Shown one piece after another: positions 2,248 through 12,043 of a stretch of DNA of 12,053 nucleotides. This DNA comes from Candidatus Aerophobetes bacterium Ae_b3b (lineage in GTDB: Bacteria > Aerophobota > Aerophobia > Aerophobales > AE-B3A), in NCBI GenBank assembly GCA_005223085.1, contig NJBP01000060.1, positions 1 through 12,053 on the forward strand, read 5' to 3'. The translations under genes were made by a program, and so were the position numbers. The notes under the pieces are model-generated. The model had not been told where the DNA came from, made no database searches, and saw only the letters and a program-made list of their open reading frames with translations. Position 1 is the stretch's first letter; each line of letters starts with the position of its first letter.

Positions 2248-2285
2248 GTTTTGAAAGCACAGCCGTATTGTGCTCAGATTATCGG

Positions 2286-2355
2286 CCACCTGCTCCGGAG
2301 GCTATTATTCCGTTGACTCTAATTTAACAAGTGGTACTATTAATGGGGGCAGGTC
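2286..2355. repeat. Left arm of a 70-bp inverted repeat bracketing the methyltransferase gene
   Basis: This 70-base stretch matches the reverse complement of 3653-3722 at 62 of 70 positions with no gaps, counted by hand. Both arms are the end of an IS3-type transposase frame plus the element terminus. The region between the arms holds exactly one gene. Confidence 0.85.
2313..2340 (+). promoter_or_regulatory. Candidate promoter inside the left IS end, reading into the methyltransferase gene
   Basis: TTGACT (2313-2318), 16 bases, then TACTAT (2335-2340): five and four matches to the sigma-70 -35 and -10 hexamers. Transcription would begin near 2347, about 70 bases before ATG 2416. It lies wholly within the IS remnant, so the promoter would be IS-supplied. 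This is inferred from consensus only. Confidence 0.4.
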
Positions 2356-2415
2356 AATTGCGCAGTGACGCAGCCGGACTGACCCAATAAATGTAAATAA
2401 GGAGGTAGTAGGGAA

Positions 2416-3654
2416 ATGGATAAGATGACCTCTCAAGAAAGAGTCCTAAAAGCAATAAATCATAAAGAACCAGATCGAGTTCCCCTGGATCTTAATGGGC
2501 ACCGATCCAGTGGAATCATGGTCCAAGCTTATAAAGAGCTCAGGAATTATTTAGGTCTACCTCCAAGTGCATTGTTTATCTATGACTTTATTCAGCAACT
2601 TGCTCTGGTAGAGGATGATGTACTGGACGTAGTAGGAGCCGATGTCGTAGAGATTAGCCATGACTTCTATAAAAAGGAAGACTACTGGCAGGATTGGCAG
2701 CTCCAGGACGGTACCCCCTGCAAGATACCTTCTTTCATAAGGGTAGAGAGAGTTCATGATGGGAGTGTGGTATATGGAGACGAAAGCCAGGTCATTTGCA
2801 TTCAGAAGAATGGCTGCCTCTATTTCGAACAAACACATTTTCCTCTAAAAGACAGCGATGATATGACTTTTGAGAGATTACCTTACTACCTGCAGCAGAT
2901 TATGTGGTGCAGGCTTGGGATTCCTCCGGCACCGGCTGCATTTGATAAAGAAGGATTTGAGATAATGAGGGCCAATGCCCAGGCATTACGCAAGTCAACT
3001 GAGCGGGCCATCTATGCAACGTTTGGAGGAAACCTACTGGAGATAGGGCAGTTTTCCTTCCGCATTGATAACTTTCTCTGTGAACTGGCAGCAAATCCAA
3101 AACGAGTGCATACCTACCTGGAAAAGCTGACGGAATTCCATCTTGATAATCTAAGGAGATACCTGGGGGCGGTAGGAGAGTATGTTGACATAATTGGTTT
3201 TGGGGATGACTTAGGTATGCAAACAGGTCCCCAAATCTCGCCGGCTATGTACCGTGAATTTTTCAAACCACGCCATAGGCTTTTGTGGCAGTACGCTAAG
3301 AAACTGTGTCCTCATATAAAGATAAGCCTGCACTGTTGTGGCAGCGTTTATCCTTTATTGAAAGATCTAATTGAGGCAGGGCTAGATGTTATCAATCCCG
3401 TGCAATTTAATTGCAAGGACATGGAACTATCACGATTAAAACAGGAGTTTGGCAGAGATTTGGCTTTTTGGGGCGGGGGCTGCGATACCAGAGAGATTTT
3501 ACCCAGGGGAACTCCTGAACAGATTCGGGAGCACGTCAGAAAGAACATACAAATCATGAGTCGTGGTGGGGGGTTTGTGTTCCAGCAAGTACACAATATT
3601 ATGGCAGATGTACCCCCGGAAAATATTGTAGCCATGTTTGAAGCGGCCAGGTGA
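2416..3654 (+). CDS. UroD-fold methyltransferase (MtaA/MtbA-like) with His-Cys-Cys...Cys metal site
   Basis: 412 residues, with AAGGAGGT at 2399-2406 nine bases before ATG 2416. The start SQERVLKAINHKEPDRVPLD (6-25) is the standard opening of uroporphyrinogen-decarboxylase-fold methyltransferases. GDDLGMQTGPQISPAMYREF (263-282) is the conserved barrel motif. LHCCG (305-309) and GGGCD (353-357) supply His306, Cys308 (or Cys307) and Cys356, the HxC...C zinc site that activates the methyl acceptor in MtaA/MtbA-type enzymes. This suggests methyl transfer to or from a corrinoid or thiol rather than haem synthesis; the methyl donor is unknown. The gene stands alone between two inverted IS3-type ends. 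Its C-terminus stops at ENIVAMFEAAR, where relatives usually continue a few residues, and the stop codon coincides with the IS terminus. The short loss is unlikely to inactivate it. Cytoplasmic. Confidence 0.85.
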   Translation: MDKMTSQERVLKAINHKEPDRVPLDLNGHRSSGIMVQAYKELRNYLGLPPSALFIYDFIQQLALVEDDVLDVVGADVVEISHDFYKKEDYWQDWQLQDGTPCKIPSFIRVERVHDGSVVYGDESQVICIQKNGCLYFEQTHFPLKDSDDMTFERLPYYLQQIMWCRLGIPPAPAAFDKEGFEIMRANAQALRKSTERAIYATFGGNLLEIGQFSFRIDNFLCELAANPKRVHTYLEKLTEFHLDNLRRYLGAVGEYVDIIGFGDDLGMQTGPQISPAMYREFFKPRHRLLWQYAKKLCPHIKISLHCCGSVYPLLKDLIEAGLDVINPVQFNCKDMELSRLKQEFGRDLAFWGGGCDTREILPRGTPEQIREHVRKNIQIMSRGGGFVFQQVHNIMADVPPENIVAMFEAAR

Positions 3655-3722
3655 CCTGCCCCCATTAATTGTACCACTTTTTAAGTTAGAGTCACCTGCA
3701 TGATAGCCTCGGGAGCAGGTGG
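3653..3722. repeat. Right arm of the 70-bp inverted repeat bracketing the methyltransferase gene
   Basis: Reverse complement of 2286-2355 with eight mismatches and no gaps. It overlaps the last two bases of the methyltransferase stop codon. Confidence 0.85.
3668..3695 (-). promoter_or_regulatory. Candidate - strand promoter in the right IS end, antisense to the methyltransferase gene
   Basis: On the - strand: GTGACT (3695-3690), 16 bases, TACAAT (3673-3668). These match the -35 at four and the -10 at five positions, in the same place as the candidate in the left arm. Transcription would run antisense into the 3' end of the methyltransferase gene. Consensus match only. Confidence 0.3.
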
Positions 3723-3942
3723 TCGTTAGTTTATAGACACTATGCGGCCTTACTTAATTGTACTCTGTTCGCCACTCCTCAATCAATATTCTCGCCTCCG
3801 CCAATGCACTGAGCACCTTCCCATTAAACCGCTAATCTCTTAGCCTGCCATTGAATAACCTTATTTATCAATTCTACCAGAGATTTCCTTATTGTGTCTT
3901 GCCAAGGAAACGCCCAGCCAAATCTCAGTACTTGTCAATATG

Positions 3943-4126
3943 AACTAAGACATTATGATGAAGAGAGATCCGCACTAGATAGATTTGTTTTTTAGGTAGG
4001 ATTTGGGGAAGTATTTCTCAACCAAAGATGTGAAGATACCCTCAAGAAAGATGCTTCAGAATGGCTCCCCGGACTGGACAAGCGGAGCTTGAATTATAAT
4101 TTAATTAACAGACTTAACCCGGGGGC
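3943..4126. other. Non-coding stretch, nothing recognised
   Basis: Between the IS3 relic and the promoter of the binding-protein gene I see no open frame with a ribosome site, no repeat shared with the rest of the window, and no second IS terminus. Confidence 0.5.
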
Positions 4127-4155
4127 TTGACAAAAAAACTTCTTTTGCTAACACT
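4127..4155 (+). promoter_or_regulatory. Candidate promoter for the ABC importer operon
   Basis: A perfect -35 hexamer, TTGACA at 4127-4132, is followed at 16-17 bases by a weak -10 (TAACAC/AACACT, 4149-4155). The weak -10 fits a regulated promoter, and a palindrome lies on it. The leader to ATG 4345 would be about 180 bases. Confidence 0.4.
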
Positions 4156-4159
4156 TAGC
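4147..4159. promoter_or_regulatory. Operator-like palindrome GCTAA-CAC-TTAGC over the -10 region
   Basis: Perfect 5-base arms around a 3-base centre, overlapping the -10 position of the candidate importer promoter. A related half-site, GCTAAG, occurs about 40 bases downstream. The position is where a repressor would block transcription. No regulator gene is in the window. The arms are short, so chance is possible. Confidence 0.35.
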
Positions 4160-4249
4160 CATGAATTTAGATCTTTTTGACAAGCGAAAGCTAAGAATAA
4201 GGCTAGAAGGAGGTGAGAGAGCAGGTAGAGCTGTTAGCTGGGAAATAAA

Positions 4250-4303
4250 GGAAGGCTTCCCAAGAAAGTGTTGAAAAATTATTTTCTGTTTTGGGAGCTT
4301 TCC
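4250..4303 (+). promoter_or_regulatory. Leader hairpin upstream of the binding-protein gene
   Basis: GGAAGGCTTCCCAA (4250-4263) pairs with TTGGGAGCTTTCC (4291-4303): 13 pairs with one G-U and one bulged T. AGAAA and TTTCT inside the loop can extend the stem. No U-run follows, so it is not a simple terminator. It ends about 28 bases before the GGAGGT ribosome site and could act on mRNA stability or as part of an attenuator. Confidence 0.45.
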
Positions 4304-4331
4304 ACAGAAAAATGAACCAAGTCCGAAACAT

Positions 4332-4337
4332 GGAGGT
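4332..4337 (+). promoter_or_regulatory. Shine-Dalgarno site that sets the binding-protein start
   Basis: GGAGGT seven bases before ATG 4345. The longer in-frame start at 4291 lies inside the leader hairpin and has no ribosome site, so ATG 4345 is preferred. Confidence 0.7.
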
Positions 4338-4344
4338 AAAGGAA

Positions 4345-5586
4345 ATGAAAAGAATTAGTTTAAGATGGGTAAAAAAAATGGCGAAAAGGAATATAAATAC
4401 CGTTTTAGCCGTAGTCATTACAGTGATCATCGCTGTGGCAATTGCAGTCCCTATAGCATGGGGCTCTTCATCGGCAACTGAAGGGATATCGACTCCAACA
4501 GGTTACTACTTTGGCCATGATTCCCTGTATATGGGCGATGAGTGGATGAGGGTGACTGACCTCGCGATCCACTATTGGGGCGAAGATCATGGAATTAGGG
4601 TGCTTACCAAAAATGCACGTTTCGATCCAGAAATTCAGATTAAAGATTATAGATATATGGTAGCTGCTGGCGTTGATGCAATAATATCTTCTCCCGTCGA
4701 TGCAGTAGCTACAAAAGGTATTACGGAGTGGGTCGTGTCGCAGGATGTTCCCCTCGTAACGTACAATACCGATGTTGATACAACAGCTGTGAAAATTACT
4801 GTAATGTTCGGTAATAAAAGAGCTGCAATGCAAGTGGCAGAAAAATGTATAGAGTACTTAAAAGAGGTTCAGGGAACCGAAGAACCTTCGGGCTTCATTG
4901 TTGGCCTTCAAGGAACTGAGGCAGTCGATACAGATGAAGTACGTGCCGAGGGATATAAAGAGGTTTTTAATAGATATCCAGGCATCAATTATGTGTATTT
5001 TTACACCAAGTCAGTCATGAGCGAGGCCCAAGCAAGAGCATATGACTCAATCATGGAATATGGTAGGCCGGTTGCTATTGTTTCTCAAAACACGACTAAT
5101 GGAAGAGGGGGATACATGGCACTCGAAAGGACAGGTATGACTGAACTTAGAGGAGAGTCAGGCCATGTGTGGATGGGTTCCATAGGTTCTCCGCCCGAGT
5201 GGATAGAGATGATGAAGGAAAGTAAAGTAGACTATGGTTATGTCCAGCCCAACTTATTCTACGGTCCTTTAGCCATGTACTTTGCTATACAACTCATAGA
5301 AAAAGGCGAAGCAGGATTGCCTAAGGTCGGTCAGACGATAACATGCAATCCGAATAAAACTAATGGGCACCAATCCGATGGAACATATAACCTCGTTATA
5401 ACGGGATACGAACACCTGTTTGAACCATGGGCATTGGATGCTCAAACATGGTTCCCTGCCAAAGTTGAAACGAACTATGGACACAGGTGGTTTAAGGTAG
5501 CTGGAATGGAGGTAACACCAGAAACAGCCGACAATCCATCAATATGGGGAAATGCAGCAAGGGAATGGTTGAGGCCAGTAAAATAA
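4345..5586 (+). CDS. Periplasmic-binding-protein (RbsB-like, Peripla_BP_4) of a CUT2-type ABC importer
   Basis: 413 residues from ATG 4345. A basic N-terminus (KRISLRWVKKMAKR) precedes a hydrophobic segment at about 18-39, a signal peptide or uncleaved anchor; there is no lipobox Cys. The mature part follows the type I sugar-binding fold: YMVAAGVDAIISSPVDAVAT (104-123), DVPLVTYNTDV (134-144), FIVGLQGTEAVDTDEVRAEG (184-203), and FAIQLIEKGEAGLPKVGQ (313-330), the usual hinge and helix order of RbsB-like proteins. It is about 80 residues longer than typical RbsB, mainly at the ends, and the C-terminal 60 residues hold several Trp. The ligand is not readable; a sugar, a sugar-like or an aromatic compound are all open. 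It heads the importer operon, whose permeases and ATPase follow after a 1.1-kb interruption. Confidence 0.85.
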   Translation: MKRISLRWVKKMAKRNINTVLAVVITVIIAVAIAVPIAWGSSSATEGISTPTGYYFGHDSLYMGDEWMRVTDLAIHYWGEDHGIRVLTKNARFDPEIQIKDYRYMVAAGVDAIISSPVDAVATKGITEWVVSQDVPLVTYNTDVDTTAVKITVMFGNKRAAMQVAEKCIEYLKEVQGTEEPSGFIVGLQGTEAVDTDEVRAEGYKEVFNRYPGINYVYFYTKSVMSEAQARAYDSIMEYGRPVAIVSQNTTNGRGGYMALERTGMTELRGESGHVWMGSIGSPPEWIEMMKESKVDYGYVQPNLFYGPLAMYFAIQLIEKGEAGLPKVGQTITCNPNKTNGHQSDGTYNLVITGYEHLFEPWALDAQTWFPAKVETNYGHRWFKVAGMEVTPETADNPSIWGNAAREWLRPVK

Positions 5587-5607
5587 AGCCTTCCCTTTTT
5601 ATTTTTT
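5561..5607 (+). terminator. Probable intrinsic terminator or attenuator after the binding-protein gene
   Basis: GGGA (5561-5564) and AGGC (5572-5575) can pair with GCCT (5588-5591) and TCCC (5592-5595) in a bulged stem that overlaps the stop codon, followed at once by a T-rich run (TTTTTATTTTTTG). It would lower expression of downstream permease genes relative to the binding protein, a common arrangement. The stem is short. Confidence 0.45.
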
Positions 5608-5981
5608 GTAGTTGCTGTACTCATGCACCACATAATAGCATCCGCTCATAGTACAAGACTTTGGCAAAAATTATCTCAAAAACGAGCTCAAGTTCCCTTG
5701 GATACAGGGTTAGAACGTTATCTGTATCCAAGGGGCAAAAATCTAAGCGAAAATTGGCTCTTTCACTTGGAAACATTCCAGGAGAATGTCATAGTGGTCC
5801 TTAAGCCACGTGTAGAAACAGAGAAAACTGAGCTTCCTAAAAGCTCTGAGTAGGTCTCTAAAGGTATTTTAAGCTTACGTTGGGTTTAAATACTCTCCGA
5901 AAAGCTCCTTTTAGCTTACCCATCTTTAAAAAGGTGTAAGGCAAAAAGACAAGGTCCCAATGCCTTTTAATTTTCTTTATC
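5608..5981. other. Decayed sequence without a supportable gene
   Basis: A 76-codon + frame at 5623-5853 has no ribosome site, no recognisable motif and biased composition, so I do not call it. On the - strand this stretch would be the continuation of the transposase fragment at 5982-6311, but stops occur in every frame. The only sharp structure is the inverted repeat at 5695-5734. Confidence 0.5.
5695..5734. repeat. Perfect 13-bp inverted repeat with 14-base loop
   Basis: CCCTTGGATACAG (5695-5707) and CTGTATCCAAGGG (5722-5734) are exact reverse complements; the loop contains the palindrome AACGTT. No T-run follows on either strand, so it is not a standard terminator. It could be a protein-binding dyad, an mRNA stem between importer genes, or part of a mobile-element end. 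Confidence 0.7.
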
Positions 5982-6311
5982 CTACGATACCTTGTTATCC
6001 TCTTTCTTCCATGCCTTTTCACTTTTTTTACCTTTCTCCTCCTTCTTTTCCGGTAAAAGGGCCTTGTCCCTCTTTAAATTGGAAAACCAATGTAGATTTT
6101 TTCTCTCGCAAAATCTCACTGTTCTTTTGCATAGATACCCGTTATCAATAAGGACTTCCCGAAATTGAATTTCCTTTTGAAAAGCATCCTTCGCTAGTTT
6201 TATGGAAAAATCTATCTTGGTATGGAACTCAGAGAAGGCCATGGAATTCCCGCGATATATTTTATGTCCGAAGTAAGCGAATAGAAACTTAGGGTAACTG
6301 TTAACCGTGCT
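5982..6311 (-). pseudogene. Fragment of an IS4-like DDE transposase, - strand
   Basis: The - strand is open for 109 codons between stops at 6312-6314 and 5982-5984. From residue 1 at the internal ATG (6240-6242) the pattern FHTKIDFSIKLAKDAF, then REVLIDNGYLCKRTVRFCER, then LHWFSNLKRDKALL resembles the middle of IS4-like transposases (FKTKIELAxELI, VLxDSWYxSKELxxF, LxxIxRLKSNRK), where the Asp of LIDNGY would be the second catalytic residue. The flanking parts, with the first Asp and the Glu, are not found intact, and the last 25 residues are lysine/glutamate-rich. It lies between the binding protein and the permeases and probably marks a past insertion there. Family assignment is by eye and moderate at best. 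Confidence 0.45.
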
Positions 6312-6672
6312 TTAAAGCTATTTGCTCCAAAAATTGTTCTAGGAATTCCCGATGAACTCCCAGAAATGGTGACATTGAAAAAGTTAGATTGGTTTCTAAA
6401 ATGGTTAAAGATTACAACGGTGAAGCCTAAGAATCATCTATAGTCAAGAACCAATCAATCTGACACTATTGAAGCTGCCCGTTTAAGTTTCTTGCTTAAC
6501 CAACGTGCACAGCTTGATCAGACGTTTGCTCCACTCTCCTTACAATTATGGCGATCTTGGACAGAAAGAAAGCGTTATTAAACTCAAGAAGGGATTCAAG
6601 CGGGAAACTCGATGTTATTTGAAACGGATTAAATCCAAAACTGGTTTTGACGAATATAAAAAGAGTGAAAAA
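6312..6672. other. Non-coding or decayed stretch before permease 1
   Basis: One + frame (about 6300-6577) is open for two runs of over 40 codons split by a single stop, beginning VNRALKLFAPKIVLGIPDEL, but I recognise no family and see no ribosome site. The permease frame is also open back to 6505, but that extension has no counterpart in the paralogue at 8606. No promoter stands out. Confidence 0.4.
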
Positions 6673-7647
6673 ATGGGTGCAACTCGCGATAAAGTAATGT
6701 TGTTTTTTGTTGAGAAAATAGCCTGGTTCCTTGCGATATTGTTCTATGTTATTTTCGCTGTATTGAAGCCAACGGGAATGCTTAGATGGGATATGCTCGT
6801 TTTTATAATTTATTCTGCAGTTCCGCTGGGATTTATCGTACTTGCCGAATCAATATGTCTTATCTCTGGAAATTTTGACCTTTCGGTTGGTATGATGACA
6901 GGTTTTATAGGTATGGTGGCAGGAATGATAATGGTATGGTGGTTACCAGACACTATTCCTGCCCCCCTGACTATACTCCTACCGCTAATTCTCGGATTGG
7001 GTTGTGGAGCTCTAAATGGATCCCTTGTAGGTTTCTTAGGGCTTAACCCATTCCTTGCAACGTTGGGGACTTCTATGGTATTTTTTGGTGGAAATTTATT
7101 AATTCACCCATATCCAATTTATGGAACAGATCTTCCAAAAATTTACACGATGATAGGGAATAATGAGGTAATATCTCTATCTGTGTTTGTTGCCACCCTT
7201 ATTGTCCTTTGGTTTGTGCTCCGTTCTACACGCTTTGGAGCTCATCTCTATGCTGTGGGAGCTGGACCTAAAACGGCGAGCATGCTTGGAATCAATAAAG
7301 GTAGAATGTACTTCTTCGCATATTTAATTGCCGGTTTTTTCTGCGGAATGTCAGCTTTGTTTTATACTGGATTTCTCCTTGCTATAGATCCCTACGCAGG
7401 GTCAACTGACCTATTCCCGGCCTTTGCTGCTGCTGTAATCGGTGGGATTAGCTTGAAGGGGGGGAGAGGATCGGTGGTAAATGCCGTTGCAGGATTAATT
7501 CTTTTAGGAATAATTGGATCTGGACTTTCGATGTTTGCTGTTACTCCTTACCTCCGACAGTTTGCTTATGGGTGTTTGGTGATTGCAGCAATTATAATCA
7601 ATAAGCTGAGAGATTCCGTAAGGGATAGAATTTTAAGGCCCGTATAG
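6673..7647 (+). CDS. CUT2-type ABC importer permease 1 (RbsC-like, BPD_transp_2)
   Basis: 324 residues from ATG 6673; the paralogue starts at the same point and the six A's before the ATG are shared, while the in-frame extension to 6505 has no homology there. Integral membrane protein with about nine or ten helices. Family signatures: LISGNFDLSVG (63-73), ALNGSLVGFLGLNPFLATLG (113-132), the cytoplasmic loop YAVGAGPKTASMLGINKGR (193-211) that contacts the ATPase, and AAAVIGGISLKGGRGSVVN (252-270). No strong Shine-Dalgarno site is visible. Residues 42-235 are identical, at DNA level too, to permease 2; differences concentrate at 236-245 (LAIDPYAGST), a presumed periplasmic loop, and 271-299, the last helices. 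I infer a heterodimer with permease 2 around the ATPase dimer, or two alternative specificities. Confidence 0.9.
   Translation: MGATRDKVMLFFVEKIAWFLAILFYVIFAVLKPTGMLRWDMLVFIIYSAVPLGFIVLAESICLISGNFDLSVGMMTGFIGMVAGMIMVWWLPDTIPAPLTILLPLILGLGCGALNGSLVGFLGLNPFLATLGTSMVFFGGNLLIHPYPIYGTDLPKIYTMIGNNEVISLSVFVATLIVLWFVLRSTRFGAHLYAVGAGPKTASMLGINKGRMYFFAYLIAGFFCGMSALFYTGFLLAIDPYAGSTDLFPAFAAAVIGGISLKGGRGSVVNAVAGLILLGIIGSGLSMFAVTPYLRQFAYGCLVIAAIIINKLRDSVRDRILRPV
6796..7377 (+). repeat. 582-bp direct repeat, copy 1, inside permease 1
   Basis: By line-by-line reading this is identical to 8729-9310, with no mismatch even at third codon positions. The flanking coding parts differ: a few changes before it, many after it. 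This pattern indicates recent gene conversion or duplication followed by selected change. Confidence 0.85.
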
Positions 7648-7821
7648 CATGACGCTACAGGTAACGGCCCTTTTAATTATCACTTCTTCCAGGTCTCTTG
7701 TTTAAAAGAATTAATACAACTTTCAGAATCGGCATCGGAAGCAAGGGATTTTAGAAAATAATTGGGAGTCACACCTACTACTTTTTAACAAGTGTTATGT
7801 TAATTAAACAGAGGAGGAATT

Positions 7822-8583
7822 ATGGAAAAAGCGTTGGTACGGATAGAGAACATTCATAAGTGGTTTGGAAAAGTCCACGCTCTCAAAGGCGTAAATATAA
7901 AAATTTGGCCCGGTGAGATAGTGGGATTGGTAGGAGATAATGGTGCCGGCAAATCGACGTTAATAAAAATCCTGGCAGGAGTTATCCGCAAGGATAAGGG
8001 AGAAATATATTGGAATGAAAAGAAAGTCGATATCTCTTCAGTTGATGATTCTAGAAAACTGGGAATCGAGACGCTGTTTCAGGAACAGAGTATAATAGGG
8101 ATTTTGAGCATAATGAGAAATGTCTTCTTGGGAAGGGAGAAAATTAAATCTTGGGGTCCAATGAAAATTCTAGACAATAAAAATATGGGTGAAGAAAGCA
8201 TGAAGTTGATTGGGCAGTTAGGGTTGAATATAGCATCACCAAACCAGGAAGTCCGGTTTTGCTCCGGTGGAGAACAGCAAGGAGTAGCATTATCAAGGGC
8301 TATGTACTTTAAGGCCAAGCTTGTTATCTTAGACGAACCTTGTAGGGCGCTGGGAGTTAAAGGCGTTGAGCAGGTATCCAACTTCGTAAAAGAGTTAAGA
8401 AACAAGAAAATCGCGGTTATCTTTATAACGCATAATCTCTATAATGTGTATCCAGTTGCAAGCAGGTTTGTTGTTCTATCTCGTGGGGAAAAAACATTTG
8501 ATGTCCAAAAGAAGAACACATCGTTTAACGAACTTCAAGTCATGATGGCCAAGATCCCATCAAGAAATAATTTACTAAGTTGA
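7822..8583 (+). CDS. ABC importer ATPase, single nucleotide-binding domain (FrcA/RbsA-N-like)
   Basis: 253 residues, with GAGGAGG at about 7811-7817 just before the ATG. Walker A GDNGAGKST (38-46), Q-loop Gln87 in LFQEQ, signature CSGGEQQ (147-153), Walker B LVILDE (167-172) with catalytic Glu172, and switch His204 (FITHN) are all present, so it should hydrolyse ATP. Most CUT2 importers use a tandem ABC protein of about 500 residues; this one has a single domain and must dimerise. Small departures: the signature begins CSGG instead of LSGG, and the D-loop region reads EPCRALG instead of EPTAALG. It sits between the two permease genes, 174 bases after permease 1 and 22 bases before permease 2, and energises them from the cytoplasmic side. 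Confidence 0.9.
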   Translation: MEKALVRIENIHKWFGKVHALKGVNIKIWPGEIVGLVGDNGAGKSTLIKILAGVIRKDKGEIYWNEKKVDISSVDDSRKLGIETLFQEQSIIGILSIMRNVFLGREKIKSWGPMKILDNKNMGEESMKLIGQLGLNIASPNQEVRFCSGGEQQGVALSRAMYFKAKLVILDEPCRALGVKGVEQVSNFVKELRNKKIAVIFITHNLYNVYPVASRFVVLSRGEKTFDVQKKNTSFNELQVMMAKIPSRNNLLS

Positions 8584-8605
8584 GAGACGAAGAAGGGTTG
8601 AAAAA

Positions 8606-9580
8606 ATGGGTGCAACTCGTGATGAAGTAATGTTGTTTTTTGTTGAGAAAATAGCCTGGTTCCTTGCGATATTGTTCTATGTTATTTTCGCTGTATTGCA
8701 ACCAACGGGAATGCTTAGATGGGGTACGCTCGTTTTTATAATTTATTCTGCAGTTCCGCTGGGATTTATCGTACTTGCCGAATCAATATGTCTTATCTCT
8801 GGAAATTTTGACCTTTCGGTTGGTATGATGACAGGTTTTATAGGTATGGTGGCAGGAATGATAATGGTATGGTGGTTACCAGACACTATTCCTGCCCCCC
8901 TGACTATACTCCTACCGCTAATTCTCGGATTGGGTTGTGGAGCTCTAAATGGATCCCTTGTAGGTTTCTTAGGGCTTAACCCATTCCTTGCAACGTTGGG
9001 GACTTCTATGGTATTTTTTGGTGGAAATTTATTAATTCACCCATATCCAATTTATGGAACAGATCTTCCAAAAATTTACACGATGATAGGGAATAATGAG
9101 GTAATATCTCTATCTGTGTTTGTTGCCACCCTTATTGTCCTTTGGTTTGTGCTCCGTTCTACACGCTTTGGAGCTCATCTCTATGCTGTGGGAGCTGGAC
9201 CTAAAACGGCGAGCATGCTTGGAATCAATAAAGGTAGAATGTACTTCTTCGCATATTTAATTGCCGGTTTTTTCTGCGGAATGTCAGCTTTGTTTTATAC
9301 TGGATTTCTCTTTGCTATAAGCCCGTATACCGCGACGGAAGCGCTATTCCCGGCCTTTGCTGCTGCTGTAATCGGTGGGATTAGCTTGAAGGGGGGGAGA
9401 GGATCGGTGGTAAATATCTTTGCAGGATTAATTCTTTTGGCTGTAGTTGAAGCTGGACTTTCGATGTTTGCTGTTTCTCCTTTTGTCCGAGAAATTGTTT
9501 TTGGATGTTTGGTGATTGCAGCAATTATAATCAATAGGCTCAGAGATTCCGTAAGGGATAGAATTTTAAGGCCCGTATAG
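8606..9580 (+). CDS. CUT2-type ABC importer permease 2 (RbsC-like, BPD_transp_2)
   Basis: 324 residues, the same length as permease 1 and collinear with it without gaps. It starts 22 bases after the ATPase gene, with AAGAAGGG upstream as a weak ribosome site, so the two are surely co-transcribed. All family signatures listed for permease 1 are present. It differs at Glu7, Gln32, Gly40 and Thr41, then in the loop at 236-245 (FAISPYTATE), and throughout 271-299 (IFAGLILLAVVEAG and SPFVREIVF where permease 1 has AVAGLILLGIIGSG and TPYLRQFAY). Identity resumes at the C-terminus and runs about ten bases past the stop codon. Its divergent parts line the outward-facing side of the channel in this family, so substrate handling or pairing with permease 1 may be what has changed. 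Confidence 0.9.
   Translation: MGATRDEVMLFFVEKIAWFLAILFYVIFAVLQPTGMLRWGTLVFIIYSAVPLGFIVLAESICLISGNFDLSVGMMTGFIGMVAGMIMVWWLPDTIPAPLTILLPLILGLGCGALNGSLVGFLGLNPFLATLGTSMVFFGGNLLIHPYPIYGTDLPKIYTMIGNNEVISLSVFVATLIVLWFVLRSTRFGAHLYAVGAGPKTASMLGINKGRMYFFAYLIAGFFCGMSALFYTGFLFAISPYTATEALFPAFAAAVIGGISLKGGRGSVVNIFAGLILLAVVEAGLSMFAVSPFVREIVFGCLVIAAIIINRLRDSVRDRILRPV
8729..9310 (+). repeat. 582-bp direct repeat, copy 2, inside permease 2
   Basis: Identical to 6796-7377 at a constant offset of 1933 bases. Recombination between the copies would delete the ATPase gene and leave one chimaeric permease. Confidence 0.85.
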
Positions 9581-9848: not shown

Positions 9849-10976
9849 ATGTATTCTAACAGTTCAAATTTCCGAGAAAGAATAATGGCTACTTATACGA
9901 AAAAGAGAGCAAACAAAATAGTATGGCAGCCAAGAATTGAACATTGGTATGACGTGAGGAAGGTTAAAGGAACTCTTCCTGAAAAGTATAAAAATAAAGG
10001 GGTTCTTGAAATCTATGATGATCTCAGTGCTTCAGTAAGGTACTATTACGGCTCTACAACGGATATTTCGTCTCCCAAAACTTATATAAAATTTGAGCAT
10101 ACAGAAAGAGTAAAAGTTAGAGAGGTAAGAAAAAATAATGATATACATCTGACTTATGAAACCCCTATCGGACAATTAAGAGGAAAAAAGACATTAGGGG
10201 AATGGGGAACTTCTTGGCATTATGTTGAACACCCTGCTAAAAGCATCTCGGATTTGAGAATTTTAGAATGTATAGTAAAAAACACAAAAGCAAGGTTTGA
10301 TTATGAATTTTATAAAGAAGCAGAGAATAAAGTTGGCCATAGAGGTGTTATTCAATTTTATTGGGAACGAAGTCCTTTCCAAAGGCTTTTACTAGAATAT
10401 ATGGGAGTTGAAAATACTATATACGCATTCCAGGATTATCCTAAAAGAATGAGAGAGTACTTGAAAACAGCTGAAGAAGCAGAGAACCAATTGTACGAAG
10501 TATTAGCGAAATGTCCTGTTTTTTCGTTAAATTTCGGAGAGAATATCGATGCTCGCTTTGACCCACCTAAGATTTTCAATGAATATCTTCTCCCCTATTA
10601 TAAAAAAAGAGTAGCGCAATTGCATAAAGCCGGTAAATTTTGTTTTATTCATATGGATGGTTCATTAAAACCTTTGTTGCCTTATATTAATGATGCTGGC
10701 TTTGATGGAGTAGAGGGCGCTACTTCCCTTCCACAAGGAGACATAACTTTAGAAGAATTGAAAGAAGCTCTGGGAGATACCATACTCATAGATGGAATTC
10801 CTATGCTTTTATTTTTACCTCATTATTCATATAAAGAATTAGAAGAATATACTATAAAAGTGCTTAATTTATTTTCCCCTAATTTGATCTTGGGAATTTC
10901 GGACGAGATTTCTCCACCAGGTGATATAGAGAAAGTAAGGTTTGTCTCGCAAATAGTAGAATCATTTAGGGTGTAA
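9849..10976 (+). CDS. UroD-fold (methyltransferase-like) protein without the metal-binding cysteines
   Basis: 375 residues. ATG 9849 is preferred to ATG 9885 because the first residues (RERIMATYTKKRANKIVWQP, 9-28) align with the family's opening RERVLAALxxxxPDRVP. The barrel is recognisable at GENIDARFDPPKIFNEYLLP (230-249) and at FIHMDGSLKPLLPYINDAGF (266-285), the strand where MtaA-type enzymes have HxCG. Here it reads HMDG, so His268 remains but Asp270 replaces the Cys, and no Cys appears in the later strand (ILIDGIP, 312-318). Any metal would need Asp/Glu/His ligands, or the role is different. Codon use is richer in A/T than in the neighbouring genes. A similar gene follows after 56 bases. 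Function unassigned; demethylation of a methoxy or methylamine substrate is only a guess from the fold and context. Confidence 0.75.
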   Translation: MYSNSSNFRERIMATYTKKRANKIVWQPRIEHWYDVRKVKGTLPEKYKNKGVLEIYDDLSASVRYYYGSTTDISSPKTYIKFEHTERVKVREVRKNNDIHLTYETPIGQLRGKKTLGEWGTSWHYVEHPAKSISDLRILECIVKNTKARFDYEFYKEAENKVGHRGVIQFYWERSPFQRLLLEYMGVENTIYAFQDYPKRMREYLKTAEEAENQLYEVLAKCPVFSLNFGENIDARFDPPKIFNEYLLPYYKKRVAQLHKAGKFCFIHMDGSLKPLLPYINDAGFDGVEGATSLPQGDITLEELKEALGDTILIDGIPMLLFLPHYSYKELEEYTIKVLNLFSPNLILGISDEISPPGDIEKVRFVSQIVESFRV

Positions 10977-11032: not shown

Positions 11033-12043
11033 ATGAAAAGCAGAGAAAGAGTTCAAAAAGCTATTCATCTTGGAAAGCCTGATAGACCACCAATATCACA
11101 TGCTATTCTCCCTTCCGCGCAGTTTAAATATGGCACTGCCCTGCAGGAGATCCTTGATTCTGTTCATGAGGATTTTGGCTGGCATTTGTTACCCGACCTG
11201 CCACGTGAGAAACTCCCTCCAATGTACAAAAAAGGGATAAACCGCGACGAGTTTGGTACAATATGGAAAGTTACCGTTGAGGGTAGATGCGGTATCCCCA
11301 TTGAATATCCTATCTCAGATTGGTCACGTTACGATGAATTTGTCTGGCCAGAATTTGACGCCGGACCACCTAAATGGAGGTTTTATAGTGGTCATATGGC
11401 GGGTAAAAATGATGATTACTATGCTCGAGGCGGATGGATTACCTTCTTTGAGCAAATGCAGCAATTACGCGGCTTTGAGCCATTGTTAGTAGATTTAATT
11501 GAGGACCGTCCGGAGGTTTACCGATTGCGAGATGATTTGCTTATGTTTAACCTTCGTTGGATTGATCGCTGGCTTAATTACGAATATCAGGCTCTACATT
11601 TTGCTGATGATTGGGGTACCCAAGATAATCTTATGATCTCACCCCGTATTTGGCGATCATTTTTTAAGCCAGTATATAAGGAGATGTTCTCAAAAGTAAA
11701 GTCTGCAGGTCTTGATGTCTGGTTTCACAGCGACGGAAATATCACCAAAATTTTGCCGGACCTTATAGACCTTGACGTTGATGTACTCAATTGTCAGTCG
11801 TCAGTTATTGGGTTGGAAATAGCCCATGAGTATGCTGGACACATTTGTTTCCGTACCGACCTTGATCGCCAAAAAATAATGCCGTACGCCTCGCCTATTA
11901 GAGTCAAAGAACATGTCTTTGAGGTTTTCGAGGTTCTTGGAGCATCGGATGGTGGGATTGTTGCTGGTGGCGAAATCAGCGAAGATGTGCCTTTGGAGAA
12001 TATTCGTGCAATGTACGAGGCATTCATGGAATATAAATATTAG
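11033..12043 (+). CDS. UroD-fold (methyltransferase-like) protein, HxDG variant
   Basis: 336 residues from ATG 11033; the upstream sequence is A-rich without a good Shine-Dalgarno site, but the family opening (KSRERVQKAIHLGKPDRPPI, 2-21) begins right after the Met. ADDWGTQDNLMISPRIWRSF (191-210) is the conserved barrel motif and FHSDGNITKILPDLIDLDVD (231-250) the metal-site strand, again His-x-Asp (232, 234) instead of HxC. The later strand reads CFRTDLD (272-278), with Arg in place of the expected ligand. The C-terminus LENIRAMYEAFMEYKY is the complete family ending. It probably shares a transcript with the gene 56 bases upstream. The two proteins are distant paralogues of each other and of the 2416-3654 protein. 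Reaction unknown; HxDG proteins of this fold are numerous and mostly uncharacterised. Confidence 0.8.
   Translation: MKSRERVQKAIHLGKPDRPPISHAILPSAQFKYGTALQEILDSVHEDFGWHLLPDLPREKLPPMYKKGINRDEFGTIWKVTVEGRCGIPIEYPISDWSRYDEFVWPEFDAGPPKWRFYSGHMAGKNDDYYARGGWITFFEQMQQLRGFEPLLVDLIEDRPEVYRLRDDLLMFNLRWIDRWLNYEYQALHFADDWGTQDNLMISPRIWRSFFKPVYKEMFSKVKSAGLDVWFHSDGNITKILPDLIDLDVDVLNCQSSVIGLEIAHEYAGHICFRTDLDRQKIMPYASPIRVKEHVFEVFEVLGASDGGIVAGGEISEDVPLENIRAMYEAFMEYKY

Follow-up and report, generated by a model that had tools for sequence, protein, structure and literature searches.

Two neighbouring CUT2-type permease genes with an identical core and divergent patches: a probable case of partial gene conversion

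Two permease genes on either side of a single ATPase gene raise the question of how neighbouring copies come to be identical over hundreds of bases, silent sites included, and sharply different in a few short segments. The DNA analysed, hereafter the window, is the whole of one contig (C56; 12,053 bp) of a 2.04 Mb MAG that consists of 86 contigs and is 88.6% complete. Permease 1 and permease 2 (P1 and P2) are probably older duplicates of a CUT2/ribose-type permease that were recently homogenised in part by gene conversion, with subunit-specific segments left different.

Gene layout and type of importer

The + strand gene set of the window comprises an FMN oxidoreductase, a DUF2284 protein, a URO-D-family (MtaA/CmuA-like) methyltransferase, a sugar-binding protein, permease 1, a single-domain ABC ATPase, permease 2, and two further URO-D-family proteins. 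The features of the permease locus are listed in Table 1.

Table 1. Features of the permease locus and of the alignment of its two permease genes, by position in the window
Feature	Position	Strand	Evidence
Periplasmic sugar-binding protein (Peripla_BP_4), presumed binding partner	4291..5586	+	Pfam E 2.3e-25
DDE transposase-like fragment, between binding protein and permease 1	5982..6242	-	weak Pfam match DDE_Tnp_1, E 0.0099, under its cut-off
Permease 1, BPD_transp_2 (PF02653), 324 aa	6673..7647	+	Pfam E 2.6e-25; predicted model with BtuC-like fold, VIA Z 17.5
ABC ATPase, 253 aa, one nucleotide-binding domain, flanked by both permeases	7822..8583	+	Pfam ABC_tran E 2.2e-27
Permease 2, BPD_transp_2, 324 aa, 92% identity to permease 1	8606..9580	+	Pfam E 5.3e-26; alignment
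Identical tract, copy 1: codons 42-235 and final base of codon 41	6795..7377	+	0 differences in 583 bases; 0/143 synonymous sites
Identical tract, copy 2	8728..9310	+	0 differences in 583 bases against copy 1
Divergent patch 1, copy 1: codons 236-246, predicted TM7 end and outer TM7-TM8 loop	7378..7410	+	16/33 bases differ; pS 0.72, pN 0.41
Divergent patch 1, copy 2	9311..9343	+	counterpart of 7378..7410 in alignment
Exact 72-base run between patches: codons 247-270, GGISLKGGRGS segment	7411..7482	+	0 differences; 0/19.7 synonymous sites; differences on both sides
Divergent patches 2 and 3, copy 1: codons 271-300, predicted TM9 and outer half of TM10	7483..7572	+	20/90 bases differ; pS 0.21, pN 0.23
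Divergent patches 2 and 3, copy 2	9416..9505	+	counterpart of 7483..7572 in alignment

By its Pfam content, a BPD_transp_2 permease together with a Peripla_BP_4 binding protein, the locus is predicted to be a CUT2/ribose-type sugar importer made up of the binding protein, permease 1, the single-domain ATPase, and permease 2. The CUT2 ATPase typically, though not universally, has about 500 aa and two nucleotide-binding domains, whereas the one encoded here has a single ABC_tran domain and matches only the first half of the RbsA/XylG models. Walker A, signature, Walker B, and H-loop are all legible in its ORF. Single-domain ATPases likewise occur in the relatives G002 and G010 and on haloarchaeal plasmids, so the importer is a single-domain variant of the CUT2 type. 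The ATPase is 62% identical to that of a one-permease locus in G002 and 56% identical to that of G010, while the binding protein shares 26% identity with the one adjoining the G002 permease. Loci that combine this kind of ATPase with a single permease were found in G002 (39% identity) and in haloarchaeal loci (~34-41%), the latter adjoining rhamnosidase or rhamnose genes. The G010 locus, with the same kind of ATPase, carries two strongly diverged permeases (L035 1054-2139 and 2165-3142). The two permease genes converge, one on each strand, and the binding protein and ATPase also lie on opposite strands, which is an unusual layout for one importer. Searches of viral contigs returned no relatives, and those of genome contigs a single distant one (31%).

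Between the binding protein and permease 1, 1.1 kb (5587-6672) holds no intact gene and includes the transposase-like fragment, compared with a spacing of ~150 bp between binding protein and permease in G002. A 79-bp dispersed repeat, which terminates in TGACCTGCCCCC and occurs at eight sites of the genome, is present at 2278-2356 (+) and 3652-3728 (-). One of these overlaps the stop codon of the URO-D gene 2416-3654. In L074, the repeat copy overlaps an ORF at its 3' end, and by eye this ORF resembles an IS3-type transposase. The two copies in the window seem to be solo IS ends facing each other around the URO-D gene. The FMN oxidoreductase (505-1566; 353 aa) corresponds to no more than the N-terminal half of BaiCD/OYE-type enzymes (~640 aa), and for the DUF2284 protein after it (1578-2108) the match to selenoprotein models is confined to their C-terminal part. 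Three diverse URO-D-family proteins (2416-3654, 9849-10976, and 11033-12043) ring the importer, an arrangement suggesting that the importer takes up a methylated substrate from which methyl groups are transferred.

Distribution of differences between the permeases

The original prediction that the permeases are collinear over 324 codons was borne out by a gapless alignment at an offset of 1933, with 44 nucleotide differences. The reported run of 582 identical bases is indeed free of any difference, silent sites included, but is one base longer. When 44 differences were placed at random 20,000 times, no identical run exceeded 279 bases, and the analytical P for a difference-free block of 583 in 975 bases is 8e-19. 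Silent differences occurred at 14 of 238 synonymous sites overall, with 14 of 95 outside the tract and 0 of 143 within it (P 1.4e-6). Because protein selection does not hold silent sites, their complete identity points to recent homogenisation.

Directly after the tract, a patch of 13 codons (7378-7416) with 16 changes had been described. All 16 changes were recovered, but within the first 11 codons, seven of which carry replacement changes, two silent changes, and two none, while bases 7411-7416 are identical. In codons 271-300, 20 nucleotide differences are spread across 16 codons, 14 of which alter the amino acid. The earlier description of codons 271-299 as mostly amino-acid-changing thus stands as a count but not as a signal, since neutral sites would give the same: 15 of 66 nonsynonymous and 5 of 24 synonymous sites differ. 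As the amino acid changes follow the ratio of sites, the many replacements are no sign of diversifying selection. The remaining differences comprise six in 6687-6794 and two at 7604 and 7608.

The silent divergence in the patches shows that they are older than the tract. Comparison of the flanks revealed no homology between the copies beyond ~10 bases outside either end of the ORFs, and the duplication therefore also looks older than the tract.

Origin of the mosaic and placement of the patches

We infer a conversion event, and selection holding the patches apart. The permeases would be duplicates that had already diverged when recent interlocus gene conversion, a non-reciprocal recombination, wrote at least one tract of at least 583 bp of one gene over the other. 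Gene conversion acts readily on neighbouring copies, and P1 and P2 lie 1.9 kb apart. The homogenised region would span helices 2-7 and the ATPase-contacting segment, and the gene ends would have been homogenised through older, shorter events. The TM7-TM8 loop, TM9, and outer TM10 would have been spared, conversions there being either absent or selected against, and through the spared segments each subunit would have an outer face and a translocation path of its own. Against this reading, the P1/P2 pair is carried by one genome only, a fragmented MAG, and the zero divergence in the tract could be partly a consensus effect.

A comparison of both copies in related strains had been proposed as a check. 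A search of 17 genomes of the order yielded no orthologs of the P1/P2 pair, and paralogs were therefore compared with orthologs in a sister pair alone. This tandem permease pair (A and B) is orthologous in three genomes (G000:C30, G002:C132, and G005:C188), the loci in the latter two being L086 (~2527-4660) and L087. Its orthologs are ~81% and its paralogs ~55% identical. In G002 and G005, the FGQHTYAIGGSVDAAE segment contains 50 bases that are the same in A and B; by homology within the family, we take this segment for the ATPase-contacting coupling segment. Among codons for the same residue in this segment, 26 of 32 and 26 of 31 are identical between A and B in G002 and G005, respectively, compared with 13 of 29 in G000 and with 10 of 28 and 17 of 32 between orthologs. 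Inside the tract, the G002 and G005 paralogs of the sister pair are thus closer than orthologs, while silent differences are present there between the G000 paralogs and between orthologs. The shared 50 bp are an independent conversion tract, counted as one event because G002 and G005 are two species of one genus. The same segment also falls within the 583-base tract of the window. Gene conversion, as originally predicted, remains the best explanation in view of the silent-site mosaic, the unrelated flanks, and this tract in the sister pair.

Alternatively, the assembly may have given the middle of two more evenly diverged copies one consensus, or joined variants of different strains. The window is a complete 12-kb contig of an 86-contig MAG, and an exact 583-bp repeat exceeds the usual short-read span, near-identical repeats being commonly collapsed in assembly graphs. 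However, both copies have distinct unique flanks within one contig, both ORFs are intact, differences are retained at both ends, and the pattern agrees with the biology of the family, conversion in the sister pair being seen in two separate assemblies. We consider such an effect unlikely, although a merging of near-identical copies by the assembler is the chief caveat.

A recent duplication of the ORF only, after which one copy took up short divergent segments of a related permease from another strain, would likewise yield zero silent change outside the patches, and the unequal apparent ages of the patches (pS 0.72 versus 0.21) are expected of separate imports. This history is nevertheless improbable, as it requires several imports of ~30 bp set between exactly matching stretches and duplication breakpoints that fall at the ORF ends. 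Six differences are present at the 5' end as well, and a search of the own genome for DNA donors of the patches found none.

Recent duplication with strong positive selection confined to the patches would fit the altered amino acid in most changed codons, but is highly improbable given that the silent rate equals the replacement rate in codons 271-300 and exceeds it in codons 236-246, which is not expected under positive selection on the protein. The silent changes in the patches thus disfavour a recent duplication with accelerated protein change, and diversifying selection, part of the original prediction, is not supported by the silent sites (dN/dS ~1.1 in codons 271-300, Fisher P 1.0; pS above pN in codons 236-246).

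Under the conversion reading, the spared segments had been called protected, and the sister pair supports this for one of them. Of the 11 sister-pair columns that correspond to patch 1, 9 carry differences between A and B that are fixed across species, compared with 30 such columns among the 127 of the homologous core (Fisher 1.9e-4). As this loop is the most subunit-specific segment of the sister pair, protection of the outer loop (codons 236-246) is supported. In contrast, the columns matching codons 271-300 showed no significant excess of subunit specificity (P 0.28), and divergence there looks neutral, two points that count against the reading for this segment. The per-position overlap between P1/P2 differences and subunit-specific columns over the whole length was not significant (9 observed, 4.7 expected, circular-shift P 0.056), and the agreement appears to hold for the loop as a region only.

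Sequence and profile searches found no homologues of the permeases with a solved structure. A model of permease 1, built from a shallow alignment and of modest confidence (mean pLDDT 57, pTM 0.59), aligned with BtuC over 282 residues (Z 17.5, rmsd 4.3 A). HmuU, 2nq2, and BhuU were the next structural matches, with Z ranging from 17.5 to 13.5 across BtuC, HmuU, and BhuU. The model thus shows, at modest confidence, the ten-helix BtuC-like permease fold of type II importers. Patches were placed via the BtuC topology, with cytoplasmic ends and ten helices. Based on this match, patch 1 is predicted to be the outer TM7-TM8 loop, patch 2 to lie in TM9, and patch 3 to cover the outer TM9-TM10 turn and the outer half of TM10, while residues 187-207 would be cytoplasmic.

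Within codons 236-300, the positions that differ between P1 and P2 are those that vary in the family (entropy 2.38 versus 1.58 bits, permutation P 5e-5). Together with the model, this suggests that the copies differ on the outer face and translocation path and match at the shared ATPase contact. Differences at family-variable positions are also expected from weak constraint without special selection. Patch residues were further compared with six near relatives for an ancient A/B identity, which was rejected, as neither copy clearly groups with either G010 permease; P2 is slightly nearer to the family than P1 in patches 1 and 3.

The permeases differ where the family tolerates or needs differences, which would fit either a heterodimer or two alternative homodimers. 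An obligate heterodimer is only possible, because the closest relatives include single-permease systems, and the pairing of P1 and P2 in one transporter is speculative. A tentative and rather doubtful generalisation would be that recurrent conversion unifies the ATPase-facing half of the tandem CUT2 permeases of this order while selection keeps the outer loops subunit-specific, one ATPase serving an asymmetric (heterodimeric) pore.

Comparison with known systems

P1 and P2 are not a new kind of system, and the proposed evolutionary process is ordinary and well known. They provide a clean bacterial example in which conversion and retained differences would lie on different faces of one protein, and the sister permease pair divides in a similar way. 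If the pattern is true in more strains, the retained patches would mark the residues that distinguish the two permease subunits of CUT2 importers.

Divergence lowered by conversion, with a peak at sites that selection keeps distinct, has been described (PMC3924837), chiefly in the human red and green opsins. Like P1 and P2, the opsins are neighbouring duplicates homogenised by conversion, with a local peak of divergence at functionally distinct sites. They are eukaryotic, however, with population data and known functional residues, whereas P1 and P2 are known from the sequence of one bacterial genome. Islands of divergence also occur in the converted pair GOT1p1/GOT1p2 of Tigriopus (PMC3728101), where a mosaic of high and low divergence was likewise ascribed to conversion, although these are animal enzyme genes sampled in several populations. 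Among bacterial tandem duplicates, gene conversion spread a block of differences in PE_PGRS17/PE_PGRS18 of M. tuberculosis (PMC1762029), a pair of another gene family compared in many strains, while P1 and P2 are transporter permeases from one genome. Closest in gene content are the CUT2 importers LsrC/LsrD and YtfT/YjfF, whose NCBIfam models were matched and which likewise have two BPD_transp_2 permease genes per ATPase gene. Their ATPases contain two nucleotide-binding domains (~500 aa), in contrast to the 253-aa single-domain ATPase and the nearly identical permeases of the window.
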